Below are positions 1 through 19,353 of a stretch of 20,218 nt of DNA, one piece after another (position 1 is the first letter of the stretch; the number at the start of each line of letters is the position of its first letter). The translations under genes and the position numbers were made by a program. Source of the stretch: a virus; the IMG/VR virus record IMGVR_UViG_3300032116_012768, positions 1 through 20,218 of that record, one strand, 5' to 3'. The notes beneath the pieces are model-generated. The model was not told the origin of the DNA. It made no database searches and worked only from the letters and a program-made list of their open reading frames with translations.

Positions 1-361
1 ATATGCCATCAAAACTGTAACGCAACCAATAGCCGGGGTTGGCAGTGTTTTTGTACAAAAACAAATTGCTGTCAGCAATTACGGTGCGACCATTGTAGGT
101 TCTTTGACCATCTAGTATTTGTTGTCTTAGTTGTAGATGCGGAGAACTTTTACCATGCTCATGTACCCAACCCAGTATCACTGCTACATCACTGGGTTGA
201 TAGTTAAAGTCGTCGACAATGACTCCTTCGTCACCACAGGCCTGCACACCTTGTATGAAAAATCTCAATGTGTTTGCTTTGTCTGTGGCTGCCTTCAAAC
301 TCTCAGCAGATGTGTACTGTTCTTTTTTGGGCAACGTGGCCAAATAACTTACTACTTTCAT
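1..361 (-). CDS. Unknown protein of the glycan locus (C-terminus cut by window edge)
   Basis: The reading frame is open from an ATG at 361 to the window edge, so at least 120 residues are present and the C-terminus is missing. The ATG overlaps the stop of the upstream glycosyltransferase-like gene as ATGA (361-358), which fixes the start and points to translational coupling. The protein begins MKVVSYLATLPKK and contains ILGWVHEHGKSSPHL and, near the edge, NPGYWLRYSFDG. There is no signal peptide or membrane segment. I do not recognise a named family. Its position as last visible gene of a four-gene glycosylation operon suggests a role in sugar or glycan work, which is inference only. Confidence 0.75.
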   Translation of the reverse strand, partial: MKVVSYLATLPKKEQYTSAESLKAATDKANTLRFFIQGVQACGDEGVIVDDFNYQPSDVAVILGWVHEHGKSSPHLQLRQQILDGQRTYNGRTVIADSNLFLYKNTANPGYWLRYSFDGI

Positions 362-1170: not shown

Positions 1171-1856
1171 ATGATATCTCTTTGTTGGCAGTACTCTGTA
1201 AGTATTCGTTCTCGGTGCCACTCACTGCCCTGGGGAGTGTCAGCAAATTCGTGAAAGCATGGAGTGCCCAAGGTATAATGCAAGAGCTTGGCCGCGGGGT
1301 TTGGCCCGTATTCATCGGGCAACCAATTCCATTCCTTCGGTAGTTCACCAACACGCTCATCGTCTAGCCACGTGAAGCGGTGGAGCTCACTGCCTGTGGA
1401 TTTTTGGATGAACTCGGGAGTAAGTCTCCGGTTAGGAAAGCTACTACAATTCCACAGAATAACACTACTCCAATTTTTTCGAGGATAGTCTTCATTTTTT
1501 GCTCCTAGATATTTTACCGGCATCTTTGTCTTGTAGTCATGCTTGACCACTTGTACATCTTTGGACATGTCTCTCATGGCCCAAAGTTCTGCAATGTCGC
1601 CACGCACAATCATATCACCATCTATAAAAATTGCTGACCCAGTCCAACTCATCAAATACGGAACTAGGAAACGTGTGTAGATAAAGTGGTTACTACCATC
1701 CGTGTGTGTTTCGTCGTAGTCTTTGAACAAGTTAAGTGCCACAGGCACAATGCTCACAGGACGGCTTGCATTTCTAATAATGCTGTTGACACAGGTATGA
1801 TATGCTATGGCCTCTCGTGGGTCATAGCCGACAAAGATTGGTATGATATCTTTCAT
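1167..1856 (-). CDS. GT8-like family glycosyltransferase (GT-A fold)
   Basis: This 229-residue protein opens with MKDIIPIFVGYDPREAIAYH, the typical first strand and helix of GT8-type enzymes. It has a DxD metal and nucleotide-sugar site in AIFIDGDMIVRGDI at about residues 77-90. A later NSSVILWNC-like strand and a C-terminal LLHYTLGTPCF segment, with a histidine in the LHY[TF]LGTP context, are also typical of retaining GT8-like transferases. The ATG at 1856 is preferred over 1883 because it forms an ATGA overlap with the upstream cytidylyltransferase-cupin stop. The likely role is transfer of a hexose or similar sugar in modifying phage or host surface glycan. The exact sugar is unknown. Confidence 0.88.
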   Translation of the reverse strand: MKDIIPIFVGYDPREAIAYHTCVNSIIRNASRPVSIVPVALNLFKDYDETHTDGSNHFIYTRFLVPYLMSWTGSAIFIDGDMIVRGDIAELWAMRDMSKDVQVVKHDYKTKMPVKYLGAKNEDYPRKNWSSVILWNCSSFPNRRLTPEFIQKSTGSELHRFTWLDDERVGELPKEWNWLPDEYGPNPAAKLLHYTLGTPCFHEFADTPQGSEWHRERILTEYCQQRDII

Positions 1857-2608
1857 CTGCGCTGGATATCCTCTTCCACACAACTCTCGCCATACTGAAT
1901 CTCAATCAGTTTTAAAGGTTTATCAGTTTCATTGCACAACATGTGCCAGCTATTTTTTGGAATAAAAATATGTTCATGTTTGACAAAAGTGCCCAGTGAC
2001 TCTTCGTCTGTGCTATTATCCAGTGTGTAAACTGCGGCTTCGCCTTCGGCCACAAACCAAAACTCAGCACGTTGTTCGTGACGTTGCATACTCAAACAAG
2101 TCTTGGGCGCAACTGTGAGTTCTTTGAGTTTGGTATTTGCACCTACTTCGTGTAGCACACGATAGTATCCCCATGCTCTAGTGGTCTTTGGTGTTTTCCA
2201 CTCTTCCAAGATCCACGAACTAGAATTGGCTTTGTTGTCTCCTCCAACTCCAAACACAAACTCCACATCGTCAAACACCTGTTCTGGAATGTTTTCAGAT
2301 GTTCTATCTCCGCCGTTGGCAAAGATGATTTCATCGTTGGGATATTTTTCCTTGACCTTGCGAATAGCATCAATGCTGGATCCGTCATCGTCATTGAATT
2401 CAATCACTTCCCCAACCATGTGTAGGTTGTCCAACACAACCATGCGTTCACGCCAAGGCATAAACGGGCGGCCTTTTTTGCGTGTGAGCCACGCATCTGA
2501 GTTTAGTCCTACCACCACGTGATCACCTAAGTGGTCTGCGTGATTCAGATAAGAGATATGTCCGGAATGTAGCGGATCAAAGCCGCCTGTAACAAGTACG
2601 ATTTTCAT
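1853..2608 (-). CDS. Cytidylyltransferase (HxGH) fused to a mannose-6-phosphate isomerase-type cupin
   Basis: This 251-residue protein has two parts. Residues 1 to about 140 form a nucleotidyltransferase domain of the RfaE/HldE C-terminal or glycerol-3-phosphate cytidylyltransferase type: GGFDPLHSGH carries the HxGH motif at residues 14-17, followed by a KGRPFMPWRER-type segment. Residues from about 150 to 251 match the type II phosphomannose isomerase cupin seen at the end of ManC: WGYYRVL, then LSMQRHEQRAEFWFV, then IPKNSWHMLCN, IEIQYGE and EEDIQRR. By family knowledge the first half activates a sugar phosphate with a nucleotide, and the cupin could isomerise or bind a sugar phosphate. It is the first gene of a four-gene ATGA-coupled operon and lies behind a TATAAATA motif only 5 nt from its ATG. 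Confidence 0.9.
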   Translation of the reverse strand: MKIVLVTGGFDPLHSGHISYLNHADHLGDHVVVGLNSDAWLTRKKGRPFMPWRERMVVLDNLHMVGEVIEFNDDDGSSIDAIRKVKEKYPNDEIIFANGGDRTSENIPEQVFDDVEFVFGVGGDNKANSSSWILEEWKTPKTTRAWGYYRVLHEVGANTKLKELTVAPKTCLSMQRHEQRAEFWFVAEGEAAVYTLDNSTDEESLGTFVKHEHIFIPKNSWHMLCNETDKPLKLIEIQYGESCVEEDIQRR

Positions 2609-2613
2609 GTTGA

Positions 2614-2621
2614 TATTTATA
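2614..2621 (-). promoter_or_regulatory. T4-late-like promoter TATAAATA
   Basis: The minus strand reads CCTATAAATATCAACATG, an exact match to the T4 late -10 element. Only 5 nt separate it from the ATG at 2608, and no Shine-Dalgarno sequence lies between. T4 late transcription starts about 5-6 nt past this box, so the mRNA would begin at or next to the start codon. Confidence 0.7.
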
Positions 2622-2635
2622 GGCTAATATAATGG

Positions 2636-2641
2636 TAAATA
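2636..2641 (+). promoter_or_regulatory. Possible late-type promoter core TAAATA
   Basis: GGTAAATATAATATGG places TAAATA 4 nt before the ATG at 2646, back to back with the TATAAATA box serving the minus-strand operon. A TATAAT at 2628-2633 without a good -35 box is an alternative. Support is mainly positional. Confidence 0.4.
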
Positions 2642-2645
2642 TAAT

Positions 2646-3215
2646 ATGGAGCACTTTTACCAAGACATCTCAGGCTTTATGAGCCACAAAAATACGGTGA
2701 TGCTGGACATGGCATTGGATCAGTTTCCCAAATCAGGCACTTGGGTTGAACTGGGATCTTGGACTGGTCGCAGTGCGGCATATTGTGTGGTTGAGTTGCT
2801 GAATCGAAAAAAACTAGGTGAATTTTATTGTGTAGATAGTTGGAAGGGTGAAACTACTATAGCATATGATCAGGCCATAGTGCAAGATCTTCAGAACATT
2901 TTTCGTAAAAATGTCAATCCTGTTATTGACCATATCCGCATGTTGAACATGATGAGCTGGGACGCCGCAGTCCAATTTGAAGATAAATCTGTGGATTTTT
3001 GTTATGTGGATGCTGGGCACAGTTACGAAGCAGTGACCAATGATCTCAAGGCCTGGTGGCCAAAGATGCGGCCTGGCGCCATGTTTGGCGGTGATGATTA
3101 CACCAAAGGTTATCCAGGAGTACAACAGGCAGTCTGGGACTTCTTTGGAGCACTGGGCATAAAGGTACGTAGATCAGGGCGTTGTTGGTTGGTAACAAAA
3201 CCAAACGCACAATAA
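2646..3215 (+). CDS. Class I SAM-dependent methyltransferase (Methyltransf_24-like)
   Basis: This is a 189-residue protein with a Rossmann methyltransferase layout. The SAM-binding glycine motif is WVELGSWTGRSAAY (about residues 32-45), the second strand is EFYCVDSWKG with the acidic residue expected to hold the ribose, and VDFCYVDAGHSYEAV is followed by LKAWWPKMRPGAMFGGDDY, where the DAGHSYE pattern is typical of Methyltransf_24 proteins in glycan loci. The ATG at 2646 has no Shine-Dalgarno sequence. The second Met (residue 12, position 2679) has a weak CAGG upstream and is an alternative start. It begins a plus-strand run with another methyltransferase and two glycosyltransferases, so methylation of a sugar or surface molecule is the favoured role. 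Confidence 0.85.
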   Translation: MEHFYQDISGFMSHKNTVMLDMALDQFPKSGTWVELGSWTGRSAAYCVVELLNRKKLGEFYCVDSWKGETTIAYDQAIVQDLQNIFRKNVNPVIDHIRMLNMMSWDAAVQFEDKSVDFCYVDAGHSYEAVTNDLKAWWPKMRPGAMFGGDDYTKGYPGVQQAVWDFFGALGIKVRRSGRCWLVTKPNAQ

Positions 3216-3225
3216 CAAGATGATT

Positions 3226-3231
3226 TAAATA
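3226..3231 (+). promoter_or_regulatory. Possible late-type promoter core TAAATA
   Basis: GATTTAAATACCACATG puts TAAATA 4 nt before the ATG at 3236, the same geometry as at 2608 and 2646. The flanking bases are a poor match to the full TATAAATA, and it could be coincidence in a short AT-rich gap. Confidence 0.35.
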
Positions 3232-3235
3232 CCAC

Positions 3236-3874
3236 ATGAATACATCTTGGCAACAACACTATCGCACCACATATTATGATTTACTAAATCCCAACGTCAG
3301 CGGGGCCAAGCGATCTTTGGTTGAAGGCATTTACAAACGAGCTGCAGGGTTTGATCTCATGTTTGATCTGCTGTTGAGCCAACGTGAAGAAAACTTCTTA
3401 ATTGTGGAAACTGGTACTCTAAGAAATCCGGGCAACTGGAAAGATGGGCAAAGCGCGGCATTGTTCACAGAGTTTGTGGAGTGGCACGGTGGCCAAATGC
3501 GCAGTGTGGACATTGATCCTGTGGCAGTTGATATTGCACGTTCACACATTGTGAGTGATCGGTTCACAGTCACATGCAGTGACAGTGTTGCATGGCTAGA
3601 TGCCATGCAGGATCGAGACCAAGTGGATCTATACTACTTAGATTCCTGGGACGTAAAATGGCACGATGACAAGGACAGTGCTGATCACCATCTCAAAGAA
3701 TTTCTCTCAATCGAACCTTATCTAAAGCCCGGATGCATTGTGGCCATAGATGACAACAGCCGTTGGGCCGCTACCCAAGCTCGCACAGGCAAAGGCCGTG
3801 CTATTGTGGAATATCTTGAAACCAAGAATCATCATCCCATCCACGATGAATACCAAATAATATTTCAATTCTAA
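3236..3874 (+). CDS. Class I SAM-dependent methyltransferase-like protein
   Basis: This 212-residue protein has a Rossmann methyltransferase signature: FLIVETGTLRNPGNW is the SAM loop, MRSVDIDPVAVDIAR is the acidic end of strand 2 with its helix, and VDLYYLDSWDV is strand 4. YLKPGCIVAIDDN near the C-terminus matches the late strand and DD pair of O-methyltransferase-like proteins. It is separated by 20 bp from the previous methyltransferase and its stop overlaps the next start as TAATG (3872-3876), so it is probably co-translated with the GT17 gene. The two methyltransferases are only distantly alike, so they are not a recent duplication. Sugar or polyketide-like substrates cannot be told apart from sequence alone. 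Confidence 0.8.
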   Translation: MNTSWQQHYRTTYYDLLNPNVSGAKRSLVEGIYKRAAGFDLMFDLLLSQREENFLIVETGTLRNPGNWKDGQSAALFTEFVEWHGGQMRSVDIDPVAVDIARSHIVSDRFTVTCSDSVAWLDAMQDRDQVDLYYLDSWDVKWHDDKDSADHHLKEFLSIEPYLKPGCIVAIDDNSRWAATQARTGKGRAIVEYLETKNHHPIHDEYQIIFQF

Positions 3875-4662
3875 TGATTATAGATACATTTTTATTCAAT
3901 GACGAATTTGACATGCTGGATATACATCTAGCAATCACCAGTCACTTTGTTGACCGCTGGATAGTGCTGGAAGCCAGTAGAACGTTTAGTGGCATACCCA
4001 AGCCGTATAATCTAACCAACAACCTGGCGCGGTATCAGGCACAGTATCCTGACAGAATACAAGTGGTCACGCTGGAGTTGACTGCTGACCAAACCAACTT
4101 GATTTGTGAAACCATGATGCGACAAGGCCTGCAACCTGCTATTGATCAATACAGTGCAGATGATATTGTCATTCACGGCGACCTAGATGAAATTGTTGAT
4201 CCCACCAAGTGGCCAGCCATTGTTGATTTGATGAACGCTAACGATCGTCCAGTCACCTGTGGATTTGAAATGTACATGTACCGTTTTGATCAGCGAGCCG
4301 ATCGTGGCTGGAAAGGCAGTGTGGTTGCTAGAAAGCGCATGTTCGCTACGCCGCACGAATTGTACAAAGGGCAAAACGTCAAACGCAAAGACCGCAGTCA
4401 TTGTGTGGGACTCAAAGAACCAGTTGGCTGGCACTGGACCTGGATCGGCACAGATGAATTGGTAAAAAACAAAGCACGAAGTTGCATTGAAAGTCAGCAC
4501 AGAGACCCAGACCAAATACTTGAAGCATTCAAACGCCTGGACACAATATCAGCAATCAATCACAAGTGTACCACCCAAACTATCAATACTGCATACCCTG
4601 AACAAGTACAATCAGTATTGAAAAACTATCCACAATATTGGAATCATGCTCCGGCGCCGTAA
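3874..4662 (+). CDS. Glycosyltransferase family 17-like protein
   Basis: This 262-residue protein matches the GT17 (Glyco_transf_17) pattern closely. MIIDTFLFNDEFDMLDIHLA corresponds to the family's N-terminal D-x-FLF-x-[ND]E-x-D-x-L block, WIVLEASRTFSGIPKP follows, and IVIHGDLDEIVDP carries the DxD site at about residues 103-105. The eukaryotic relative of the family is a beta-1,4-N-acetylglucosaminyltransferase. Phage and bacterial members sit in surface polysaccharide loci. It overlaps the preceding methyltransferase by TAATG and the following glycosyltransferase by TAATG. It has no membrane segment, so it is likely a soluble cytoplasmic enzyme. The sugar transferred is not known. Confidence 0.88.
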   Translation: MIIDTFLFNDEFDMLDIHLAITSHFVDRWIVLEASRTFSGIPKPYNLTNNLARYQAQYPDRIQVVTLELTADQTNLICETMMRQGLQPAIDQYSADDIVIHGDLDEIVDPTKWPAIVDLMNANDRPVTCGFEMYMYRFDQRADRGWKGSVVARKRMFATPHELYKGQNVKRKDRSHCVGLKEPVGWHWTWIGTDELVKNKARSCIESQHRDPDQILEAFKRLDTISAINHKCTTQTINTAYPEQVQSVLKNYPQYWNHAPAP

Positions 4663-5465
4663 TGAAAACCGATCGAGAACTCAAGCAACAGCATCGTGCG
4701 GCTAGGCAAGCACATCGCGAATCAAAAAGAAACCACTTATCTGCCCCGGTCAATTCTGCTGTGATTGATTGTGCCTGTGTTATTCATGGTACTGGGTATG
4801 ACTGGGAGTATGTGGAACGACTGTACAACATGCTCACACGCCAACTTCCAGGCGGCATACGTTTTCATGTGTACACAGAACACGACAGGTCAGTACCACC
4901 ACACATGATCAAACACATCTTGGATGATTGGGGTTTTGGCGGCCCAAAAAAGTCCTGGTGGTACAAGATGCAGTTGTTTAATCCTGCACATTTTTCAGGA
5001 CGCTTGTTGTATTTGGATCTTGATGTGGTAGTGGTTCAGAATCTGGAATGGATCACTGCACTTTCCACAGACTATTTCTGGACCATTAGAGATTTTAGGT
5101 ATCTGCAAAATCCTCGTATCAACTCCATGAACTCCAGTGTGATGTGGTTTGATGTATCTAAATTCAGTTGGGTATGGGACAAATTCAATTCAGGACCTGT
5201 GTCGCAGATGATTCAAGGCTTTCCTGGAGATCAGGATTTTTTAAATCACACAATAGATCATAACAAACGCAGATTCTTTGATGACAGTAAATTTCAAAGT
5301 TATCGTTGGCAATGTCTAGACGGTGGCTACAATTTCAATCGCCGCACCCATCATCGTCCTGGCTCGGGCACAGTCATCTCTCCAGATACGTCTGTTGTGG
5401 TATTTCACGGCCGGCCTAAACCACATCAAATCACGGATTCTGCTATACGGCAACATTGGCAGTAA
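4662..5465 (+). CDS. DxD-type (GT-A) glycosyltransferase
   Basis: This 267-residue protein starts at the ATG at 4662 that overlaps the previous stop as TAATG, not at the in-frame ATG at 4638 inside the previous gene. The first 30 residues are rich in Lys, Arg, Gln and His and look like a flexible tail. The core has VIDCACVIHGTGYDW as first strand, KSWWYKMQLF, then RLLYLDLDVVVVQNL with the DxD pair at residues 119 and 121, INSMNSSVMWFD, a GDQDFLN motif and a C-terminal VVVFHGRPKPHQ. This order is typical of phage and capsule-locus GT-A transferases. It is last in the plus-strand glycan run and is followed by a small hairpin at its stop codon. Confidence 0.86.
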   Translation: MKTDRELKQQHRAARQAHRESKRNHLSAPVNSAVIDCACVIHGTGYDWEYVERLYNMLTRQLPGGIRFHVYTEHDRSVPPHMIKHILDDWGFGGPKKSWWYKMQLFNPAHFSGRLLYLDLDVVVVQNLEWITALSTDYFWTIRDFRYLQNPRINSMNSSVMWFDVSKFSWVWDKFNSGPVSQMIQGFPGDQDFLNHTIDHNKRRFFDDSKFQSYRWQCLDGGYNFNRRTHHRPGSGTVISPDTSVVVFHGRPKPHQITDSAIRQHWQ

Positions 5466-6125: not shown

Positions 6126-7148
6126 ATGAGTGCAATCCGCGTAGTAAACGGTACCTACCGTAACAAACCCGTCCGTAATCAAGAATTCTTTCTTGTAAGC
6201 GGTTTCCAATCCGGTGCCAAAGGTAACTATGTTACTGTCAAAAACAACGGCACTTTTCCAAACTGCCCTGAAACGATTCGTATCAGTGTAGACAACATCT
6301 CTGATATCGAGTACACTAACGGCATGACACAACCCAACACCGTACACTTTGAGAAGCCCGCCCCTGTTGTTGAATCTGATGAGGATGCAATGACTCGTAT
6401 TCGCGAGCGTTTTGAAATCCTTACCGAAATGACCAAGGCCACTGTGAGCGGTGACATCCGCGCCATGATTGTGAGTGGCCCTCCTGGTGTTGGCAAGAGC
6501 TTTGGTGTTGAAACTGAAATTGAAAAGGCTTGCCTTTTTGACAAGCTGGCAGGCAAGCGACTGCGAGCAGAAGTTGTCAAAGGCTCGGCTACCCCTATTG
6601 GCCTGTTCCAAACCCTGTACAAATACTCAGATGAGAATTGTGTGATTGTGTTTGACGACTGTGACAGCATTTTGCTGGACGACGTGGCCCTCAACTTGCT
6701 GAAGGGTGCTCTTGACTCGGGCAAGAAGCGTACCATTAGCTGGTTGTCAGAATCCAGTGCTTTGCGCCGTGAAGGTATCCCAGATCGTTTCGAGTTCAAA
6801 GGTTCAGTAATCTTTATTACCAACCTTAAGTTTGACCAAATGAAGTCGCAGAAATTGCGTGACCACTTGGATGCTCTGCAAAGTCGTTGTCACTATCTGG
6901 ACTTGACTCTGGACACCATGCGCGACAAGTTGTTGCGTATTAAACAGATTGCCAAAGACGGCGTGTTGTTCCAGGACTACGAGTTTGAAGAGGCTGTGCA
7001 AGACGACATTATCGACTTTATGCATACTAACAAGGACCGACTGCGCGAAGTATCTTTGCGTATGGCGCTGAAGATTGCAGACTTGCGTAAGATGTCTGTG
7101 CTGAACTGGAAGCGCCTGGCAGAGACTACTTGCATGAAGAGCGCCTAA
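6126..7148 (+). CDS. AAA+ ATPase with N-terminal beta-rich domain
   Basis: This is a 340-residue protein. Residues 1 to about 75 look like a small beta domain (KGNYVTVKNNG, RISVDNISDIEY). The AAA+ module follows: Walker A GPPGVGKS at 118-125, Walker B VIVFDDCD at 173-180, a sensor-1-like IFITN at 229-233, and a helical C-terminal lid. It is not the T4 clamp loader gp44, because a typical gp44 replication-factor-C signature is lacking and Walker B is FDDCD rather than DEAD-like. It more resembles AAA+ proteins that remodel protein complexes. The strong promoter and AAAAGGAGC site suggest abundant early expression. A 29-residue hydrophobic peptide gene follows directly and may be co-translated. 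The client is unknown. Confidence 0.9.
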   Translation: MSAIRVVNGTYRNKPVRNQEFFLVSGFQSGAKGNYVTVKNNGTFPNCPETIRISVDNISDIEYTNGMTQPNTVHFEKPAPVVESDEDAMTRIRERFEILTEMTKATVSGDIRAMIVSGPPGVGKSFGVETEIEKACLFDKLAGKRLRAEVVKGSATPIGLFQTLYKYSDENCVIVFDDCDSILLDDVALNLLKGALDSGKKRTISWLSESSALRREGIPDRFEFKGSVIFITNLKFDQMKSQKLRDHLDALQSRCHYLDLTLDTMRDKLLRIKQIAKDGVLFQDYEFEEAVQDDIIDFMHTNKDRLREVSLRMALKIADLRKMSVLNWKRLAETTCMKSA

Positions 7149-7345: not shown

Positions 7346-8209
7346 ATGCCTCAACATCTTGTTATCCGTTTGGGCCTAGACGGAAACTTTGAACTCAACT
7401 TTCAAATACGTGATACACCTGTAGCCGAGTTATGGGTCGAGCGTATGCAAGCCCGCGGCAGTTACCCATTGGATCATCCGGATAGATTTTATGGATTTGG
7501 CACTCTGGCGCAAGAACAACTTCGTGCAGTAGAGTATATTCAAAAATGCATTGCTACAATTAATGCACACGAATATCTAATAGATAGGCCGTTTGAATAC
7601 ACACAGGACTGCCTTAATTACTTGCACAACATATTTGAACAACATCACGGTTTGCTAGATCAACAATGTAGTGATTATTGGTCACGTGCACCGGAGTCGG
7701 CTAGAAAGGCACTGGCAGACTTGAACCTGGCTGTGCATAGATGTGAAAGTGTAGCGGCCGGCACCAATCCAAGATTTGTTTGTACCTGGTATGGCATGCC
7801 CAAAACACATCAGTTGGCTTTGAACTTGCAAGAGAAATATACTGAGTCACAAATTCAGTTTGGTACTGTGTATCTAAACTATTGTGAAATTGGAAAAACT
7901 GCTGAGGACCTGGCCAACGACAACGATAAGTACATAGGTGATGATGCATTTCGGCCATTTGATCATTACAGCGCCGACTTTAATATACAATTCTACTGTT
8001 TGGATCTGACACCGCGTTATGGCAAAATTCAAACGTATATTGACCAGCATCGTGACTTTTTTGTTGCTCGCGGCATCACAAACGTGTATAATACACAAGC
8101 AAGACCCTTAAGATTACCGGTTGCAGATTTAGTTTACAATGGCAACCAAGAACAAATACTCTCCCAAATTGCTGAACGGCAATGGGTACAACAAGTGACA
8201 ATACGATGA
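7346..8209 (+). CDS. Unknown protein upstream of uvsW, 287 residues
   Basis: The protein begins MPQHLVIRLGLDGNFELNF and has a mixed composition with many aromatic and His residues, no signal peptide, no membrane segment and no nucleotide-binding motif. The middle (about residues 60-150) appears helical. The second half is richer in beta-type patterns, such as GTVYLNYCEIGKT and FNIQFYCLDLTPRYG. The stop overlaps the uvsW start as ATGA (8206-8209), so the two are probably co-translated and may act in the same process. The start lies at the predicted transcription start of the promoter at 7311-7339 and lacks a Shine-Dalgarno sequence. I do not recognise the family. Confidence 0.83.
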   Translation: MPQHLVIRLGLDGNFELNFQIRDTPVAELWVERMQARGSYPLDHPDRFYGFGTLAQEQLRAVEYIQKCIATINAHEYLIDRPFEYTQDCLNYLHNIFEQHHGLLDQQCSDYWSRAPESARKALADLNLAVHRCESVAAGTNPRFVCTWYGMPKTHQLALNLQEKYTESQIQFGTVYLNYCEIGKTAEDLANDNDKYIGDDAFRPFDHYSADFNIQFYCLDLTPRYGKIQTYIDQHRDFFVARGITNVYNTQARPLRLPVADLVYNGNQEQILSQIAERQWVQQVTIR

Positions 8210-9675
8210 AACGATGCACCATACAACTCCGAGATGAAGTGAACATCAAACTAGAAGGACTAGATCTGGATGTTCGCAAGGCCTTGGTCACAGCTTTCAA
8301 ATACGAAAACCCTGCCGCACGTTATATGCCAGCGGTGCGACTGGGACGTTGGGATGGTAAGGTTGCATACTTTCAACTGGGTGGTAGCAGTTATACAAAT
8401 CTCTTGCCCGAGATCATTCCTATACTTGAGAAGTTTGATTATGACATTGAACTAGACGATCAAAGAGATTACTCTACCACATTTGAGTTTGAACAGGTGC
8501 GTGAAGATTCGTTTGCACATATCACGTGGCCCAAGGGACACCCGGCTGTGGGTGAGCCCATCATCATGCGAGACTACCAAGTGGAGATTGTGAACAACTT
8601 CCTGGCCAATCCGCAGTGCCTACAGGAAGTGGCCACAGGTGCAGGCAAGACTATCATGACAGCGGCCTTGAGCAATGCAGTGGCACCATATGGCCGCTCA
8701 ATTGTTATTGTGCCCAACAAAAGTCTAGTGACACAAACAGAAAAAGACTACATCAACATGCAACAAGATGTTGGTGTGTATTTTGGCGATAGAAAAGAGT
8801 ACGGGCGCCAGCACACTATCTGTACTTGGCAAAGTCTAAACGTGCTGTTAAAGAACACCAAAGCAGGCACAGGCGAAGTAACCATTGGCGAGTTCTTGGA
8901 AGGTGTGGTATGCGTTATCGTAGACGAAGTACACATGGCCAAAGCAGATGCACTCAAAACCTTGCTAACTGGTGTGATGGCTAGAGTGCCAATTCGATGG
9001 GGTTTGACCGGAACTATCCCTAAAGAAAAGTTTGAAAGTCAGGCTCTGCTGGTAGGGCTTGGTCCTGTGGTTGGTAGACTCAGTGCCAACGAACTACAAC
9101 AACAAGGTGTGCTAGCCAACTGTCACGTGAACATTGTGCAGTTGGTAGACCATGTGGAATACAAAGAGTATCAAAGCGAACTAAAGTACTTGCTGGAAGA
9201 GTCAGGCCGACTAGACACCATGGCAGAACTGATCCGTAAGGTAAACGAAACAGGCAACACCTTGGTACTGGTAGACAGAGTTGCCGCTGGCAATGAATTG
9301 GTTGCACGTCTAGGGGACAAAGCAGTGTTTGTGTCGGGCGCAACAAAAGGAACAAAAAGGCAAGAAGAATATGATCAAATTGCAGACTCAACAGGAAAAA
9401 TTATTGTGGCCACTTACGGTGTGGCAGCGGTTGGAATTAACATACCGCGAATCTTTAATCTGGTGCTTATTGAGCCCGGTAAGAGCTTTGTTAGGGTTAT
9501 CCAAAGTATTGGTAGGGGCATCCGAAAAGCAGAGGACAAAGATCATGTGCAAATTTGGGACATCACCAGCACCTGCAAGTTCGCCAAGCGACACCTGACC
9601 AAACGCAAACAGTTCTACCGAGAAGCCAACTATCCTTTCTCAGCAGAGAAACTAGAGTGGATGAAGATCGCATGA
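8206..9675 (+). CDS. uvsW: UvsW-like superfamily 2 recombination helicase
   Basis: This 489-residue SF2 helicase has the expected motif order: N-terminal domain with FKYENPAARYMPAVRLGRWDG (about 31-51), MRDYQVEIV Q-like motif (121-129), motif I ATGAGKT (143-149), motif II DEVH (240-243), motif III LTGT (267-270), a ATYGVAAVGINIP motif V region (402-414) and motif VI QSIGRGIR (433-440). In T4, UvsW unwinds R-loops and branched DNA and moves forks, shifting replication from origin- to recombination-dependent mode. I use the ATG at 8206, not 8182, because it makes an ATGA overlap with the upstream gene. The size suits phage UvsW. The next gene overlaps its stop as ATGA. Confidence 0.94.
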   Translation: MKRCTIQLRDEVNIKLEGLDLDVRKALVTAFKYENPAARYMPAVRLGRWDGKVAYFQLGGSSYTNLLPEIIPILEKFDYDIELDDQRDYSTTFEFEQVREDSFAHITWPKGHPAVGEPIIMRDYQVEIVNNFLANPQCLQEVATGAGKTIMTAALSNAVAPYGRSIVIVPNKSLVTQTEKDYINMQQDVGVYFGDRKEYGRQHTICTWQSLNVLLKNTKAGTGEVTIGEFLEGVVCVIVDEVHMAKADALKTLLTGVMARVPIRWGLTGTIPKEKFESQALLVGLGPVVGRLSANELQQQGVLANCHVNIVQLVDHVEYKEYQSELKYLLEESGRLDTMAELIRKVNETGNTLVLVDRVAAGNELVARLGDKAVFVSGATKGTKRQEEYDQIADSTGKIIVATYGVAAVGINIPRIFNLVLIEPGKSFVRVIQSIGRGIRKAEDKDHVQIWDITSTCKFAKRHLTKRKQFYREANYPFSAEKLEWMKIA

Positions 9676-10430
9676 CACACGGAATTGAAATGAAAAAATT
9701 AGTAACCTGCGGCGACAGTTATCTAAGCCTTGATTCGCCACCTGGTGAAATCAAAAGTTTTTTGCAACTGTACGCTGAACATAAAAATTTTCAACACATT
9801 AGTCTAGCTCGTGCTGCGGCCACGTGTTTTGCTATACGACTACAAATTGACAACGCTATTGACCGAGGTGCTGATTTTGTAATAGTAGGTTGTACCTCCA
9901 GTGATAGAATGGACATAGTGGCACCAACAACTCCTCCAAGAATGGACATAGTAGCACCACAGGCCTCTCCTACATACGGCTGGCTTAAACTAAACAATAT
10001 CTTGTACACAGGATATCGTAGCGTGAGTGAATTTAACATCAAATATAAAAACCCACTGGTTGTGAGTGATGTGATAGAAAATTTACTTAATAAAAAACAC
10101 GAAAACATGTTGAGTGATCAACAACGCACAGCAATCAAAAACTATGTGGCAGATTTGTATGACAACAATTTGAAGCGCCAAGAAAATTATTTTGTCATAT
10201 CCGACGGATTGCGTAAACTTCAATATCATCAAATACCTTTTTTGTACATACCACACGGCCTAGGCGGCATGGATTGGTCCTGGGTACAAAAAGTATGGCC
10301 ATCAGATCGTCTTCCTTGTCAGATGCCAAATGGTGCGTTTGATTGGGATCGCAGTGTCACACACAACGACCAAGCAGCCCATGATGGATTTTTAAATACG
10401 CTGTTGGAGCTTACCGAGGATTGGTGTTGA
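9672..10430 (+). CDS. GDS-motif SGNH-hydrolase-like protein 1, with 11-residue tandem repeat
   Basis: This 252-residue protein has CGDSYLS at about residues 13-19, where the Ser would be the SGNH nucleophile. ISLARAAATCFAIR follows as a block II-like segment, VGCTSSDR lies in the middle, and near the C-terminus HNDQAAHDGF could supply the catalytic Asp/His block. There is no signal peptide, so it acts in the infected cell or is packaged. The ATG at 9672 overlaps the uvsW stop (ATGA); a second ATG at 9690 is possible. Residues after SSD contain RMDIVAP twice, 11 residues apart, from a 33-bp tandem duplication. The substrate is unknown; by family it could be an esterase or deacetylase, or a non-catalytic relative. 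Confidence 0.78.
   Translation: MTHGIEMKKLVTCGDSYLSLDSPPGEIKSFLQLYAEHKNFQHISLARAAATCFAIRLQIDNAIDRGADFVIVGCTSSDRMDIVAPTTPPRMDIVAPQASPTYGWLKLNNILYTGYRSVSEFNIKYKNPLVVSDVIENLLNKKHENMLSDQQRTAIKNYVADLYDNNLKRQENYFVISDGLRKLQYHQIPFLYIPHGLGGMDWSWVQKVWPSDRLPCQMPNGAFDWDRSVTHNDQAAHDGFLNTLLELTEDWC
9906..9971 (+). repeat. 33-bp in-frame tandem duplication
   Basis: AGAATGGACATAGTGGCACC at 9906 recurs at 9939 with one change in the first 20 bases. The period is 33 bp (11 codons), giving RMDIVAPTTPP followed by RMDIVAPQASP. The first two thirds of the unit are nearly identical and the last third has diverged. Confidence 0.85.
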
Positions 10431-11191
10431 AAAAAGAATTTGATATTGTAGTATGTGGAGACAGTTTTAGTTCAGCAACCAAAACTGGTAATCCGCGTAG
10501 CAACACCAGAGATCATTACAGTCAAATATTGCAAGATCAATATGGATATTCAGTGCTGTGCCTGGCTAGAAGTTCCATGACCAATCTTGGCATTGCCTGG
10601 CAGATGAGACAGGCAATTGAAATTGGATGTAAATTTTTATTGTATCATAACACCTGGAGTTACAGACTGAACTTGATGATCAATGACAACTTTCAAGTTG
10701 AAAAAGGATTAAAAAATTTCATATATCCATTTAAAGATGATGAAAGTTCTTACACCACTTATGTGGGACACAACCCTAGATGCACATCTTCAAATGGAAT
10801 ACCAACACCGGACAATGATGCACCCATACTGAGTACAGTACCTCAGGGTCTTGAAAACAATCCCACCTTGATACTCACTAAAGACCAACACAAGGCCATT
10901 GAATACCATTTCAAATATTTTTTCAATGAAGAATTGTACCAAGAAGTTGACTCTTGGATCCTGGCACACTGGCATCATCAAGCAGAAAAAGCAGGAATAG
11001 TTCCCATAGACATGAAACAGTCACTGGGTCGACCCATGTTTGATTATCAGATGAAGGGCAAGATGGTGGGTGATACTTATATCATGCACCCAGATCATGA
11101 TGACGATCGCCCTTTTCACACAGATCAAGCCACCCAACAAACGGTAGCAGATGCTGTGCATATGGAAATACAAAAACTATCAAATGCTTGA
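10427..11191 (+). CDS. GDS-motif SGNH-hydrolase-like protein 2 (TTG start)
   Basis: This 254-residue protein starts (L/M)KKEFDIVVCGDSFSS, with GDS at about residues 11-13. LARSSMTNLGIAWQMRQAIEIG follows, resembling block II with an Asn as oxyanion residue. The C-terminus has HPDHDDDRPFHTDQATQQTV, a candidate Asp/His block. There is no ATG near the start. The TTG at 10427 forms a TTGA overlap with the preceding stop and has GAGGA (10416-10420) 6 nt upstream, so I prefer it to the TTG at 10421 or GTG at 10424. It is a diverged paralogue of the upstream gene. Its stop codon lies inside the -35 box of the next promoter. Confidence 0.78.
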   Translation: MKKEFDIVVCGDSFSSATKTGNPRSNTRDHYSQILQDQYGYSVLCLARSSMTNLGIAWQMRQAIEIGCKFLLYHNTWSYRLNLMINDNFQVEKGLKNFIYPFKDDESSYTTYVGHNPRCTSSNGIPTPDNDAPILSTVPQGLENNPTLILTKDQHKAIEYHFKYFFNEELYQEVDSWILAHWHHQAEKAGIVPIDMKQSLGRPMFDYQMKGKMVGDTYIMHPDHDDDRPFHTDQATQQTVADAVHMEIQKLSNA

Positions 11192-12369: not shown

Positions 12370-12808
12370 CAAACTAAACATTGCCAATGAGATGCGACAG
12401 TTTGACCGCAAGAACAGATCATTCTACGACGAACTCACCGCAGAAGAAAAGAAAAAGTTTTCAAACTATCTCATGATACGTTGGGGCTCCTCAGTGGAAG
12501 GCTCAAGAGAACTACAAGAGTTTTATGTCATCAGTTGCAACGAACGACTAAACAAGCACTTCTTTGACGTTAGCAAGCACCCCAAACTACATTGGCTCAT
12601 GGCCACCAGTGTGAGTCCAGACTTGGGCACACCAAGGCATCCTTGGATAGCCCCCAAGAAAAAGGAAGCAGGGCTCAGTGGCAAACGCAAAGCCCTAATG
12701 GCCATATACCCCACATACAAAGATGATGAAATTGATGTAATGTGCGAGATCACTACCCAGAAAGAAATTGACGAATACAATCGTCGTGCTGGCCAGGACA
12801 AAAAATGA
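12362..12808 (+). CDS. Probable clamp-loader small subunit (gp62-like)
   Basis: This 148-residue protein begins MSDKLNIANEMRQFDRKNR. Its centre, FSNYLMIRWGSSV followed by YVISCNERLNKHFF and HPKLHWLMATSV, resembles the gp62 clamp-loader partner of marine T4-like phages, where a Y-x(2)-N-x(2)-hydrophobic segment precedes a His/Lys-Leu-x-Trp-Leu motif. The C-terminus, IYPTYKDDEIDVMCEIT followed by EIDEYNR, forms a helical tail. In T4, gp62 joins gp44 to load the gp45 clamp on DNA. No gp44 is in the window, so the partner must be elsewhere. Identity to gp62 is a pattern judgement and needs profile comparison. It overlaps the next gene as ATGA. Confidence 0.55.
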   Translation: MSDKLNIANEMRQFDRKNRSFYDELTAEEKKKFSNYLMIRWGSSVEGSRELQEFYVISCNERLNKHFFDVSKHPKLHWLMATSVSPDLGTPRHPWIAPKKKEAGLSGKRKALMAIYPTYKDDEIDVMCEITTQKEIDEYNRRAGQDKK

Positions 12809-13506
12809 ACCTAGTGGTCAACGGTTGCAGTTATATGGAATCGTATGCTGTGGGTCAAGGGCATGTTGATTTGGCTCAGCAGCTGGCGCTAGACTGCCCT
12901 GTGAGTCTTGCCATAGGTGGTAGCGCAAACAGTCGCATACTAAGGACCACACTCAAACACAGTTACACAGCACCGCCAACACTGTATGTGCTAGGCATGA
13001 CATTTTTGTCAAGATTAGAAATTCCCATATGTGAACAACTAAATGACTTTGAAGGGCGTTGGGTCAATCCGCAAAATCAAGAGTTTAAATCTCGTTGGCA
13101 GTATGACTGGACACAAGCAGATTCAGATCAATTTGTAGAAACCAAACTCAAAAGTGAAGTATACTCTGTGTTGGATCGCATAGAAGATTTGATGTATCGC
13201 ATGTTGGCCACCATTGCCGACTTGCAAAGTCGCGGACACCGTGTGCTGATGTTTCAACAAGCAGACAACCTATACTTAGATTTCTTATCAGACCCCAGAT
13301 TATCATTATTTGATCAACCCGAAATCGTGGGCAAGTTTGGCTGGCGTGCCACTGTCTGGCAAGCTGAACAGGGAGTCCAGCCCAAAGACTATGGTCCAGG
13401 TGCACCTTATGTTCCACCGGACATGACACATGCCGCAATTGGACATCACCAAAAACTAAATGAATATTTGACAAACTACATTCAAGAGCGTAAACTGTTA
13501 GCATGA
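12805..13506 (+). CDS. SGNH-like protein 3 with Cys in place of the GDS aspartate
   Basis: This 233-residue protein starts MNLVVNGCSYMESYAVGQG. The position of the SGNH nucleophile motif reads GCSY rather than GDSY, so the Ser is kept but the Asp is Cys. LAIGGSANSRILRTTL matches block II (Gly and Asn in the oxyanion positions) and HAAIGHHQKLNEYL at the C-terminus matches the His block. It may be an active variant or a binding-only relative. It sits between the clamp-loader-like gene and the zinc-finger gene with ATGA overlaps on both sides. It has no secretion signal. Confidence 0.75.
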   Translation: MNLVVNGCSYMESYAVGQGHVDLAQQLALDCPVSLAIGGSANSRILRTTLKHSYTAPPTLYVLGMTFLSRLEIPICEQLNDFEGRWVNPQNQEFKSRWQYDWTQADSDQFVETKLKSEVYSVLDRIEDLMYRMLATIADLQSRGHRVLMFQQADNLYLDFLSDPRLSLFDQPEIVGKFGWRATVWQAEQGVQPKDYGPGAPYVPPDMTHAAIGHHQKLNEYLTNYIQERKLLA

Positions 13507-14177
13507 GTTTTGTATGCGATTATTGCAAGAAAACGTTTTCTAGAGAAACGTCAATAGCCGTTCACATGTGTGAACCCAAACGCCGACGACTTGCTCGAGA
13601 CGAAGCAGGGGTGCGTATGGGATTCCAAGCATACATCAAGTTTTATGAAACCATGCAAGGATCGGCCAAAAACAAAACACACGATGACTTTTGTGACAGC
13701 CCTTATTACAGAGCATTTGTCAAGTTTGGAAACTATTGTGTAAACACTCATGTGATTGCTCCTGCACGTTTTATGACCTGGTTACTGAAAGCACAAAAGA
13801 AGATTGACAATTGGTGCAGTGACAAAGTCTACACTGAATACTTGATTGAATACCTGCGTGTGGAAGCAGTGGATGATGCACTGGCTCGAGCAATAGAACA
13901 CAGCATACGTTGGGCAGAAGAAACAGGCAATCCCCCACATGATTGGATGCGTTATGGCAACACCAATAGTCTATGTTATGCTGTTACAGCCGGACGTATA
14001 AGTCCTTGGGTGATTTACAATTCAGAATCAGGACAAAAGTTTCTAAGCGAACTCAGCACAGAACAAGTGGCCATGGTATGGCCCTACATCGATAGTGACG
14101 CTTGGCAAAAGAAATTCACAAATTACCCAGCGGATCAAGAGTATGTGAAAGATATATTGAACAAGGCAGGATGGTAA
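13503..14177 (+). CDS. Protein with N-terminal C2HC zinc finger
   Basis: This 224-residue protein starts MSFVCDYCKKTFSRETSIAVH and then MC: C-x2-C, 12 residues, H-x-C gives a C2HC finger at about residues 5-22, followed by the basic stretch KRRRLAR. The remaining 190 residues are largely helical and aromatic-rich, without a known enzyme motif. A single finger with a basic tail suggests DNA or RNA binding, or docking to another replication protein. It is coupled by ATGA upstream and TAATG downstream to the DnaE-like gene, so it may work with that protein. It could be a loader, adaptor or late-transcription factor; no choice is justified. Confidence 0.82.
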   Translation: MSFVCDYCKKTFSRETSIAVHMCEPKRRRLARDEAGVRMGFQAYIKFYETMQGSAKNKTHDDFCDSPYYRAFVKFGNYCVNTHVIAPARFMTWLLKAQKKIDNWCSDKVYTEYLIEYLRVEAVDDALARAIEHSIRWAEETGNPPHDWMRYGNTNSLCYAVTAGRISPWVIYNSESGQKFLSELSTEQVAMVWPYIDSDAWQKKFTNYPADQEYVKDILNKAGW

Positions 14178-14746
14178 TGAGCGCAGACATTGACATTGAC
14201 TTTGCCAACAGAGATGATGCGCTGAAATTAATTCAGCATGTTCCTGCACGACAAAGCAATGGACGCCGGCACAACTCAGGAATCTATGTAACAGACATTC
14301 CTCGGGATCCTGTCAATCAGTGCGCCGCCATAGATTACGAAGAAGCAGAACAGCGTGGTTATTTTAAACTGGACTTTTTGAACATGAGTGTGTATCAGTT
14401 GATCCGTGATCCTGCACACTACAAAGAGATGTTCACAACCAGCCCGCCCTGGGAGCGACTATGGACCGATCATGCTTGGGCCAGCCAACTAGTACATGTG
14501 GGCAATTATACAGATTTGCTACGAGTAATGAAACCAGATTCAATACCCAGGATGGCGGCGTTTATCTCTATTATTCGCCCAGGCAAGGCACATTTACAAA
14601 CACAGCCCTGGCCAGAAGTATTTGCTAGTGTATGGGACGGGGACGAATCAAAGGGCTACACATTTAAGAAAAGCCACGCAGTTTCCTACGCGGCCCTGGT
14701 AGCACTACACATGAACTTGCTTAATCAATCCGACGCACCAGCGTAA
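14177..14746 (+). CDS. Miniature DnaE-like protein (DNA polymerase III alpha catalytic core remnant or mini-polymerase)
   Basis: This 189-residue protein is colinear with the palm and finger parts of bacterial DNA polymerase III alpha. ADIDIDFANRDD (residues 3-14) matches the PDxDxDF block with two catalytic aspartates. RHNSGIYV (31-38) matches the KHAGG-type segment. AIDYEEAEQRGYFKLDFL (51-68) matches the segment with the third catalytic Asp, here D66. ISIIRPGK (130-137) matches ALxRPGP, and YTFKKSHAVSYAALV (161-175) matches the YGFNKSHxxAYA motif. PHP, OB, tau-binding and clamp-binding regions are absent, and about 80-90 residues are missing at two internal places. The start at 14177 is fixed by TAATG with the zinc-finger gene. 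All active-site residues remain, so a working nucleotidyl transferase is possible. Confidence 0.8.
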   Translation: MSADIDIDFANRDDALKLIQHVPARQSNGRRHNSGIYVTDIPRDPVNQCAAIDYEEAEQRGYFKLDFLNMSVYQLIRDPAHYKEMFTTSPPWERLWTDHAWASQLVHVGNYTDLLRVMKPDSIPRMAAFISIIRPGKAHLQTQPWPEVFASVWDGDESKGYTFKKSHAVSYAALVALHMNLLNQSDAPA

Positions 14747-15098
14747 TTGACTTTCTCTTGCCTTTTCTGCGCACTATGTCCAGCAAACTGCAAGTAGGCC
14801 CGTGCAAAATTTCTAAGTCTTTGTTGACAAAAGTACGAAGAGTGGGGCGGAATTGTTCCCAATCTCTGCGTAGAAATATGTTTATAGGTATGCTACGATT
14901 GCTTTCCCACCACCAGGTGCTGGCAAGTTCTAAGAACAGCACCTTATCTTCCTGTGTTTGTACAGCACCAAAGTCGTAGATAGTGGTGACAACGTCGTCT
15001 CTGTTTTGTACCACACCTACATATTCCACATTTGCGTACAAGCACAATGTGATAAAGGGATACTTCTCCGTTAGCTTTTCAAAAATATTATTACCCAT
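14721..15098 (-). CDS. Unknown 125-residue protein on opposite strand
   Basis: The protein starts MGNNIFEKLTEKYPFITLCLY and contains YVGVVQNRDDVVTTIYDFG, a Trp-rich STWWWESNRSIPINIFL and a basic C-terminus (RRKGKRKSITLVRRID). The patterned sequence and Trp cluster show it is a real protein, and I recall similar conserved hypotheticals in marine T4-like phages. It has no known domain. It is tail-to-tail with the DnaE-like gene, overlapping it by 26 bp, and head-to-head with the virion gene at 15120. No clear ribosome site precedes the ATG. A basic tail and a strand change between replication and virion genes might suggest a regulator, but that is a guess. Confidence 0.78.
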   Translation of the reverse strand: MGNNIFEKLTEKYPFITLCLYANVEYVGVVQNRDDVVTTIYDFGAVQTQEDKVLFLELASTWWWESNRSIPINIFLRRDWEQFRPTLRTFVNKDLEILHGPTCSLLDIVRRKGKRKSITLVRRID

Positions 15099-16221: not shown

Positions 16222-17208
16222 ATGCTAGACATCCTTGCTTACCTACCTGCAAAAAGAAAACCCAGTCCACAGGGCTGGCTGAGTTTCAATGCAGTATGTT
16301 GCACTCATAATGGTAACAGCGCAGACAAGCGTGGGCGTGGCGGTATCAAAGCAACCGAATCGGGTTGGAGTTACCATTGCTTCAACTGCGCATACACAGC
16401 CAGTTTCATTCTGGGGAGAACTGTTAGTTTCAAAGCCCGACGATTATTAGGATGGATGGGTGTGCCAGATAACGAGATTGACATGCTCAATCTTGAAAGC
16501 CTACGCCACCGTAGTATACACGGCATACTAGAAGATCGACAACGGACATTCAACGCACTCAGTACTATTGAGTTTGAAGAAGCAGATGACTTCCCGCCTT
16601 ACGCAGAAGTGGTCACACCTGAGTTTCCTTTGTACTGGGATTACATTCGTAAACGAGGTGTACCAGAAGACTTTCCCATAATGACATCAATCAAAACTGA
16701 TGGAGTTCATTGGGTTAGGCCGTTTGTGTTAGTCCCATTTACCTACGACAATCGGGTAGTTGGGTGGACTGCTAGATTCTTGGATGACAAACAGCCCCGG
16801 TACATCAATCACTCACAACCGGGCTATGTGTTTGGTACAGATCTACAACATGCCAACTGGCAACATGTGCTAGTGACGGAAGGCATATTTGATGCACTTT
16901 CAATTGGCGGACTTGCTGTGATGCACAATACCATCAGTGACGCACAAGCAAGATTAATTCGCAGTCTTGGACGTGAAGTAACTGTGGTACCAGATCAAGA
17001 CACAGCCGGTGTAGAACTGATTGACCGTGCTGTGGAACTGGGATGGGCAGTGAGCATACCTGAATGGCCTGAGGGTTGTAAAGATGTCAACGACGCTGTA
17101 ATAAAACTAGGTCGCCTAGGGGCCTTGCTAACTATTATGGCCGCAAGAGAAACTAGTAAAATCAAAATAGAGATAAGGAAACGACAACTTGTCAAAAGAA
17201 TACAATAG
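16222..17208 (+). CDS. 61: Phage DNA primase, gp61-like (zinc finger plus Toprim)
   Basis: This 328-residue protein has a zinc-binding N-terminus (CCTHNG at about residues 26-31 and HCFNC at 52-56, giving Cys/His ligands) and a Toprim core: VLVTEGIFDA with the catalytic Glu at 220, VVPDQDTAG with DxD at 258-260, and KDVNDAV at 287-293. This is the layout of T4 gp61, which makes short RNA primers with the gp41 helicase. The ATG at 16222 coincides with a predicted transcription start. The gene order primase, SGNH-like, helicase keeps the two primosome genes in one operon. The end overlaps the next gene's TTG start by 20 nt. Confidence 0.92.
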   Translation: MLDILAYLPAKRKPSPQGWLSFNAVCCTHNGNSADKRGRGGIKATESGWSYHCFNCAYTASFILGRTVSFKARRLLGWMGVPDNEIDMLNLESLRHRSIHGILEDRQRTFNALSTIEFEEADDFPPYAEVVTPEFPLYWDYIRKRGVPEDFPIMTSIKTDGVHWVRPFVLVPFTYDNRVVGWTARFLDDKQPRYINHSQPGYVFGTDLQHANWQHVLVTEGIFDALSIGGLAVMHNTISDAQARLIRSLGREVTVVPDQDTAGVELIDRAVELGWAVSIPEWPEGCKDVNDAVIKLGRLGALLTIMAARETSKIKIEIRKRQLVKRIQ

Positions 17209-17902
17209 GCTTTGGGTGTTTGGTGACAGTTATAGTACGCCGGATGTTTGTGTTTCTCCACAAGAAAGTTTTTGGGGGTTAACTGCTTCTACGTTGGGTG
17301 TTGACACGGTGATTAACTGCAGCAGATCCAAAATAAGTTTTGACAGTGTGTGTCAAATGCTAATAGGTGAACAGCAAAGATACAACTTTGATCAAGACTT
17401 TTTTGTCATTGGCCTGCCGCCGTTGGAAAGGATCACTGTATTTGACGATTACAAAGACACAGCACTGGTAAGTTCTGTATTTGATACAAAAACGTGGCAA
17501 GCACAACCCAGTAATGTCACAAGCCATCATGGATTGATAAATTTACAGTACAAGGAACTTGATCGATTGTCAGTGTTGATCAGTGATCGTAGTTGGATTG
17601 AAACCCAGGTTTTGCGACAGATATTTTTAATAACCAAGTGGTTGGATTCTTGCAACGCTAACTACATTGTTGTAAATCTCAGTAAAAATTTAGATCCAAA
17701 CAATCACTGGGGACCAAGTCAATACATACTAGATTATTGTGTAGCTCACAACAGATGTAAAATATTTGATGGCTCCATGTATGATGTTAACTTGAACATC
17801 AACCGGCCAGCAGATTATGACAATTTTGGATGGCACGGGCATCACGGACCTGCTGGTAACCGACATTTTTTTGAAACAAGCATAAAGGACAAACTTTGTT
17901 AA
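17189..17902 (+). CDS. GDS-motif SGNH-hydrolase-like protein 4, between primase and helicase (TTG start)
   Basis: This 237-residue protein starts (L/M)SKEYNRLWVFGDSYSTPD, with GDS at about residues 12-14. FFVIGLPPLERI and YIVVNLSKN give the central strands. The C-terminus, DNFGWHGHHGPAGNRHFFE, supplies the Asp and His expected of the last SGNH block. There is no suitable ATG; the TTG at 17189 has AAGGAA at 17175-17180, 8 nt upstream, inside the primase end. It lacks a secretion signal and a membrane segment. Its place between two primosome genes is unexplained. It could be a passenger or an enzyme acting on a nucleotide-linked or surface substrate. Confidence 0.76.
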   Translation: MSKEYNRLWVFGDSYSTPDVCVSPQESFWGLTASTLGVDTVINCSRSKISFDSVCQMLIGEQQRYNFDQDFFVIGLPPLERITVFDDYKDTALVSSVFDTKTWQAQPSNVTSHHGLINLQYKELDRLSVLISDRSWIETQVLRQIFLITKWLDSCNANYIVVNLSKNLDPNNHWGPSQYILDYCVAHNRCKIFDGSMYDVNLNINRPADYDNFGWHGHHGPAGNRHFFETSIKDKLC

Positions 17903-19353
17903 AAGAATACGGACTTGATGTCCAAAGACTATTTCTAGAGATGATGTTGGAAGACGCCACAAGTTATGTGCGTGTTCAAAACATCTACAACCCACAAAAC
18001 TTTGACCGGAGTTTGAGGTCAGCGGCTGAGTTTATCAAAGAACATTCAGACAAACACAAGACCATGCCTGACAGGCAACAGATTTCTGCAACCACAGGGG
18101 TTAAACTTGCACCAGTGCCGGACTTGAACGAAGGTCACTTTGACTGGTTCATGGGCGAGTTTGAAGCATTTACCCGACGTCAAGAACTTGAACGTGCTAT
18201 TTTGAAGTCAGCAGACTTGCTGGAGAAAGGCGAATTTGAACCCGTTGAAAAACTCATCAAAGATGCAGTACAGATATCACTCACTAAAGACATGGGCACG
18301 GATTACTTTGCTGATCCTAAAGCTCGCATTGAGAAATACTTCAACTCGGGCGGGCAAGTAAGCACAGGTTGGCCGCAACTGGATAGATTGCTGTATGGTG
18401 GATTCAGTCGTGGTGAACTAAACATCTTTGCTGGAGGTTCGGGCTCAGGTAAGTCACTTGTGATGATGAACATTGCGCTAAACTGGCTACAACAAGGATT
18501 ATCAGGTGTGTACATTACACTGGAACTTAGTGAAGAACTCACAAGTTTGCGAACTGATGCCATGTTGACTAACATGAGCACCAAGGACATCCGACGTGAC
18601 ATGGACACAACTGAACTCAAGGTCAAACTGGTGGCCAAAAAGTCCGGCAACTATCAAGTGAAAGGTTTGCCGGCGCAGAGCAACATCAATGACATTCGTG
18701 CTTATTTGAAAGAGTATCAAATTCAAACAGGCAAGAAAGTGGACTTTGTGATGATTGACTACTTGGACCTGTTGATGCCTGTTAGTGCCAAGGTGTCACC
18801 CAATGACTTGTTTGTGAAAGACAAGTATGTGAGTGAAGAACTACGCAACTTGGCCAAAGAACTGGCAGTGCTAATGGTTACTGCAAGCCAGTTGAACCGT
18901 AGTGCGGTAGAAGAAATTGAATTTGATCACTCGCATATCTCGGGCGGTATCTCTAAAATTAACACAGCAGATAACGTGTTTGGTATTTTTACGTCACGTG
19001 CCATGAAAGAGCGTGGCAAGTATCAGATACAATGTATGAAGTCTCGAAGCTCGACCGGCGTTGGTCAAAAGATTGATTTGGAGTACAACATTGAAACCAT
19101 GCGCATTACTGATGAAGGCGGAGACGAGGGAACTGGATACAACAGACCTCAAAGCAGTATCATGGACTCAATCAAAGCCAAGAGCCAGGTCAAGACTGCT
19201 GATACCGGAAGTGATGGTGAATCATCTCCACCATGGGAACGGGCTACAGGAACTCCTGCCTGGGAAAAACCACCACAGGACACAGGCAAAGTCACAGCAG
19301 ATGTTCAAAGTGCAAAACTAAAACAACTGCTGGGGCAGATTAAATCAAATTAA
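17896..19353 (+). CDS. 41: Replicative DNA helicase, gp41-like (DnaB family), TTG start
   Basis: This is a 485-residue RecA-fold helicase. Residues 1 to about 150 are the helical N-terminal collar. Then come Walker A GGSGSGKS (180-187), VYITLELSEE (205-214), the Walker B strand VDFVMIDYLDLL (282-293), VTASQLNRS (328-336) and HISGGISK. The last 65 residues (GYNRPQSS onward) are a low-complexity Pro/Ser/Gly linker ending in a short helix, AKLKQLLGQI, likely an interaction tail. In T4, gp41 forms the hexamer that opens the fork and binds gp61 primase. The TTG at 17896 has AAAGGA 6 nt upstream and overlaps the previous stop by 7 nt; no ATG is close. It ends tail-to-tail with the fibre gene, sharing TTAA. 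Confidence 0.94.
   Translation: MLKEYGLDVQRLFLEMMLEDATSYVRVQNIYNPQNFDRSLRSAAEFIKEHSDKHKTMPDRQQISATTGVKLAPVPDLNEGHFDWFMGEFEAFTRRQELERAILKSADLLEKGEFEPVEKLIKDAVQISLTKDMGTDYFADPKARIEKYFNSGGQVSTGWPQLDRLLYGGFSRGELNIFAGGSGSGKSLVMMNIALNWLQQGLSGVYITLELSEELTSLRTDAMLTNMSTKDIRRDMDTTELKVKLVAKKSGNYQVKGLPAQSNINDIRAYLKEYQIQTGKKVDFVMIDYLDLLMPVSAKVSPNDLFVKDKYVSEELRNLAKELAVLMVTASQLNRSAVEEIEFDHSHISGGISKINTADNVFGIFTSRAMKERGKYQIQCMKSRSSTGVGQKIDLEYNIETMRITDEGGDEGTGYNRPQSSIMDSIKAKSQVKTADTGSDGESSPPWERATGTPAWEKPPQDTGKVTADVQSAKLKQLLGQIKSN

Follow-up and report, generated by a model that had tools for sequence, protein, structure and literature searches.

What does a phage gain from a DnaE-like protein of only 189 residues, and can such a protein hold a complete polymerase active site? 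These questions are raised by the gene at positions 14177-14746 (plus strand) of the window, the 20,218-nucleotide stretch of DNA analysed here, which makes up IMG/VR record IMGVR_UViG_3300032116_012768. The initial annotation had described it as a miniature DnaE with all catalytic aspartates in place, set among T4-like replication genes.

DnaE homology of the 189-residue protein

The open reading frame encodes 189 residues beginning with MSADIDIDF, and its start codon (ATG) and the stop codon of the preceding gene (TAA) overlap. The DnaE motifs assigned to it were all found in the translation, in the order and at the positions given for them. D4, D6 and D8 lie at the N-terminal end, RHNSG carries H32 and G35, YFKLDFL carries K64 and D66, RPGK spans R134 to K137, and YTFKKSHAVSYA holds F163, H167 and Y171. 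The DxDxDF element forms the first strand, and the GS motif and the palm elements that precede it in DnaE are absent.

A single-sequence Pfam search with this protein returned nothing, and single-sequence phmmer against the PDB gave chance matches only. A profile search of the PDB reached Pol III alpha weakly, and profile-profile comparison was therefore needed. By hhalign, the profile of the family matched ten diverse DnaE sequences with 96.4% probability (E=1.2e-9), and PHROG 11778, named 'DNA polymerase', matched the protein itself with E=7.8e-51, which upholds the proposed homology to DnaE. The AlphaFold model (pLDDT 90.7, pTM 0.83) had Pol III alpha as all ten of its best PDB matches, so that the expected polymerase fold was recovered at the level of fold matches. 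The TM-scores of the model to DnaE were modest (0.36-0.46), as expected because large parts of DnaE are missing.

Conservation of the catalytic aspartates had been set beforehand as one of two refuting tests for this assignment, and D4, D6, D8 and D66 proved invariant in 169 relatives with identities down to 28%. In the same relatives H32, G35, K64, R134, P135, K137, H167 and Y171 never vary either. By alignment, ten of the invariant residues correspond to D401, D403, D405, H511, G514, K553, D555, R639, H760 and Y764 of E. coli DnaE. D401, D403 and D555 are the catalytic aspartates of that enzyme, while D405 is kept in DnaE and not in PolC (PMC3919608). Hence D4, D6 and D66 match the metal-binding residues, and D8 matches the DnaE-specific D405. 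Taken together, these comparisons identify the product of 14177-14746 as a DnaE homologue by descent. On the basis of profile match, fold and invariant residues, we annotate it as the C-terminal half (C-half) of a split minimal DnaE-type polymerase, PHROG 11778.

Homologues of the C-half occur in 369 related stretches in IMG/VR. Of 50,697 phage records searched, 63 contain it, and nearly all of these are 280-490 kb long or are partial assemblies of such phages. The window lineage shares 28-43% identity in the C-half with cultured members, and the length is constant across divergent phages. A dN/dS of ~0.1 indicates strong purifying selection. Cellular matches are restricted to ten loci in GTDB genomes, all in MAG contigs, and these are likely phage contigs. 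In GenBank, the C-half is labelled 'putative membrane protein' in CBB, GAP32 and several Erwinia, Klebsiella and Salmonella phages, a label that conflicts with its DnaE-like palm.

The GS motif is carried by a second protein in relatives

The claim that the active site is complete within 189 residues had to be abandoned, since the GS motif is missing from the C-half and is carried by a separate gene in relatives. In contrast to a DnaE-type family C polymerase, the GS motif and the aspartates are not in the same chain here. The second protein (N-half; PHROG 11127, ~170 aa) was found on the relatives' genomes with positions about 20-96 of the Pfam model PF07733. It is a separate gene in 9/9 genomes first tested, namely all eight cultured phages and a 342-kb contig whose own C-half is 76% identical to that of the window. 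The N-half aligns to residues 321-393 of E. coli DnaE (hhalign E=2.5e-12), and its top 12 fold matches, although weak, are all family C polymerases.

The two proteins meet at a fixed point. In 112 of 121 sequences the N-half terminates exactly after EFL[RK], just before DnaE continues into PERVSMPDFDVDF, and many C-halves start with MPDxDIDF, matching the MPDxDxDF of DnaE where the N-half stops. As the end of the N-half abuts the start of the C-half on DnaE, the halves are complementary and only about seven residues are lost between them. No N+C fusion was present among the fetched loci. The 20-kb window contains neither an N-half nor a family B polymerase gene, and its record is a fragment of a larger genome; we infer that this genome encodes both, with the N-half lying beyond the 20-kb record.

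Residues and domains kept and lost relative to DnaE

Each of the 22 N+C genome pairs retains the DnaE residue at the same 17 of 31 DnaE-invariant positions, of which six fall in the N-half and eleven in the C-half. The pair shares the palm motifs with bacterial DnaE (Pol III alpha), and its D405 equivalent is a point of agreement with DnaE and not with PolC; the fingers-proximal elements RPGx and FKKSH are retained after the third aspartate. It differs from bacterial DnaE in being split into ~190 and 170 residues and in what has been removed. Alignment with ten DnaE sequences reduces the thumb to a short loop and shows most of the fingers to be deleted, including Q687, E688 and F727. R390 is replaced by Glu in every pair, and R396 is lost with the missing linker. 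Because of the change at R390 and the loss of R396, Q687, E688 and F727, the pair may have a changed polymerase activity or none. The PHP domain was found in 0/16 related genomes, compared with 14/14 control genomes. Single-chain phage DnaE enzymes (phrog_405; Streptomyces phage Zemlya, Pbunavirus) are homologous to the split family in the palm; those aligned have thumb and fingers, and the split family accompanies a family B polymerase.

Supply of the missing fingers by another gene was considered and rejected: extra fingers sequence exists only in one genome (G009), within a separate unsplit polymerase. This 316-kb contig, IMGVR_UViG_3300021197_001489, encodes both split halves and a single-chain 564-aa PHP-less DnaE-like polymerase (L148:907-2601, minus strand) comprising palm and fingers (PF07733, E=2.6e-41; PF17657, E=1.1e-16). 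Its gene follows the DnaB helicase gene immediately and is read from the other strand.

Co-occurrence of the two halves and their companions

The N-half is also present in 63 of the 50,697 phage records, and both halves are common to 59 of the 60 records listed for each. Both halves are present in nine of the ten metagenomic contigs that are at least ~300 kb long; the tenth has the N-half only. In that contig (IMGVR_UViG_3300035698_035310, 359 kb; G015, locus L248) the N-half has the usual fixed end and no C-half was detected. Either this contig is incomplete or the pairing has a true exception. Shorter contigs, which often have one half alone, are probably fragments. In nine genomes the halves are 15-224 kb apart, and there is therefore no operon linkage between them. 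In several genomes the neighbour of the N-half is a GroES-like gene; RaK2 and L248 have, in addition, a gp44-type clamp-loader gene downstream of the N-half. A mirror-tree comparison of the two halves gave r=0.76 (0/5000 permutations); we do not take this correlation as a sign of binding, since it is accounted for by the common ancestry of the phages.

A family B polymerase, as anticipated for T4-like phages, was present in 12/12 related genomes tested. A DnaQ-like exonuclease was rejected as an obligate partner, since it is encoded in 7/13 genomes and missing from all of the window's nearest relatives that were checked.

A conserved replication module around the C-half

The T4-like replication setting of the gene was borne out by a UvsW-type DNA helicase (8182-9675, plus strand) in the same region, a Toprim DNA primase (16222-17208, plus strand) and a DnaB-like replicative helicase (17896-19353, plus strand). 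The last two belong to a module that recurs in relatives in the order zinc-finger gene, C-half, antisense gene of ~120 codons, primase and DnaB helicase. In the window, the zinc-finger-like gene (13503-14177, plus strand; phrog_11058) encodes an N-terminal Cys/His cluster, and its stop codon is the one that overlaps the C-half start. Counted over related loci with enough sequence, its homologue lies upstream of the C-half in 153/158 loci, the primase is present in 115/117 and the helicase in 83/83. With the window's proteins as queries, XacN1 and CM1, the most divergent members, gave no match to these neighbours.

The antisense gene (14721-15098, minus strand; phrog_11637, 125 aa) overlaps the 3' end of the C-half gene. 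Its place and orientation are kept in 148/150 loci, an unusually stable position amid plus-strand genes. The protein encoded at 6126-7148 had been called clamp-loader-like. A weak similarity of this kind does exist; the protein itself, however, is an AAA protein of unknown family (phrog_1250, E=9.5e-83).

A member of a known split polymerase family

The initial annotation knew of no named family for the protein. It belongs to PHROG 11778, and the main text of Iyer et al. 2021 (PMC7824862) describes a split minimal Pol III alpha of group 2.2 jumbo phages, with the reconstitution of one enzyme from two units as a proposal. The family being thus already known, 14177-14746 is a new, uncultivated member of it. 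The group 2.2 system (in RaK2, gp411 is the C-half and gp373 the N-half) has the same C-half family and gene order as the window; a distant second-half gene and a family B polymerase are features that it shares with the window's relatives. The window differs from its cultured members in coming from an uncultivated phage of the divergence given above. The main text of the CBB genome paper (PMC5259590) treats a truncated 172-aa Pol III alpha as a protein by itself; this is the N-half partner of the C-half family. Added here, and absent from the main texts of both papers, are the constant split point, the account of residues kept and lost, the figures for co-occurrence, and the conserved module with its antisense gene.

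Proposed role and alternatives

We think it probable that the gene encodes the C-terminal half of a minimal split family C polymerase, paired in trans and serving a non-processive accessory role beside the family B replicase. The most likely enzyme, judged from sequence, would have two subunits, of which this is one, and would act as an accessory polymerase or nucleotidyltransferase tied to priming or gap filling. The C-half would supply the three metal-binding aspartates, the lysine equivalent to K553 and the FKKSH helix, and the N-half would supply the GS-motif half of the palm, which would hold the triphosphate. The two proteins would then jointly form, in trans, a single site for nucleotidyl transfer. 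As there is no thumb or PHP domain and most of the fingers are gone, processive replication is argued against, and the location of the gene near those for primase and helicase suggests the extension of primers or the filling of short gaps, a role that the pair would perform beside the family B replicase. That it represents a new functional class, a thumbless enzyme whose active site two proteins encoded far apart complete in trans and which acts for the T4-like primosome at a step outside bulk replication, is a further proposal that we put forward tentatively and consider rather unlikely.

The evidence can also be read as pointing to chemistry other than templated synthesis. The pair could be a nucleotidyltransferase of another kind, engaged in end tailing or primer modification, which has kept the palm chemistry and lost the domains that handle the template. 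The absence of the thumb, the PHP domain and most of the fingers fits this reading, as do the loss or change of Q687, E688, F727 and R390/R396 next to a preserved GS motif and aspartates, and the constant presence of a family B replicase. However, RPGx and FKKSH are fingers-proximal DnaE elements and have been retained, the neighbours are replication genes, and another substrate has no positive support; we give this possibility a limited chance. A mini-polymerase that works alone with a complete active site is a much poorer candidate. Its metal-binding residues are all present and the single chain is predicted to fold confidently, but the DnaE-invariant GS motif and adjoining palm elements are found only in a co-occurring second protein, whose end matches the beginning of the C-half.

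Two non-enzymatic readings of the gene were also weighed against the split polymerase. DnaE homology in a phage and the small size of the protein would suit a mimic, irrelevant to catalysis, which would drive host DnaE off DNA, clamp or primer. Such a decoy is very improbable, even more so than the stand-alone enzyme, because the catalytic residues are what is conserved: the equivalents of D401, D403, D405, K553 and D555 do not vary among phages whose hosts are very different. In addition, the PHP domain is absent from the related genomes and the alignment has no conserved clamp-binding tail. Large deletions relative to DnaE would likewise suit a functionless, decayed remnant of a captured dnaE; the low dN/dS, the hundreds of intact homologues, and a length and split point that stay the same among divergent phages make this hardly credible.

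Family C and family B polymerases are normally the replicases of different lineages; in these phages, a family B replicase is accompanied by a reduced family C core in two pieces. Should the two proteins complete a single active site in trans, the pair would be, to our knowledge, the smallest family C catalytic unit. It would then serve as a test of which DnaE domains the chemistry needs, and of the suggestion by Iyer et al. 2021 (PMC7824862) that a core of this kind is like the ancestral enzyme.

Other genes of the window

Two further groups of genes stand beside the replication genes, both judged by eye from their translations. The block of reading frames at 358-5465 resembles sugar-nucleotide and glycan-type enzymes, with a nucleotidylyltransferase-like protein bearing a cupin-like end, and with methyltransferase-like and glycosyltransferase-like proteins. 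The reading frames at 9555-10430, 10421-11191, 12805-13506 and 17189-17902 start with related GDSY- or NGCSY-type motifs and resemble SGNH/GDSL-type hydrolase paralogues dispersed in the replication region.
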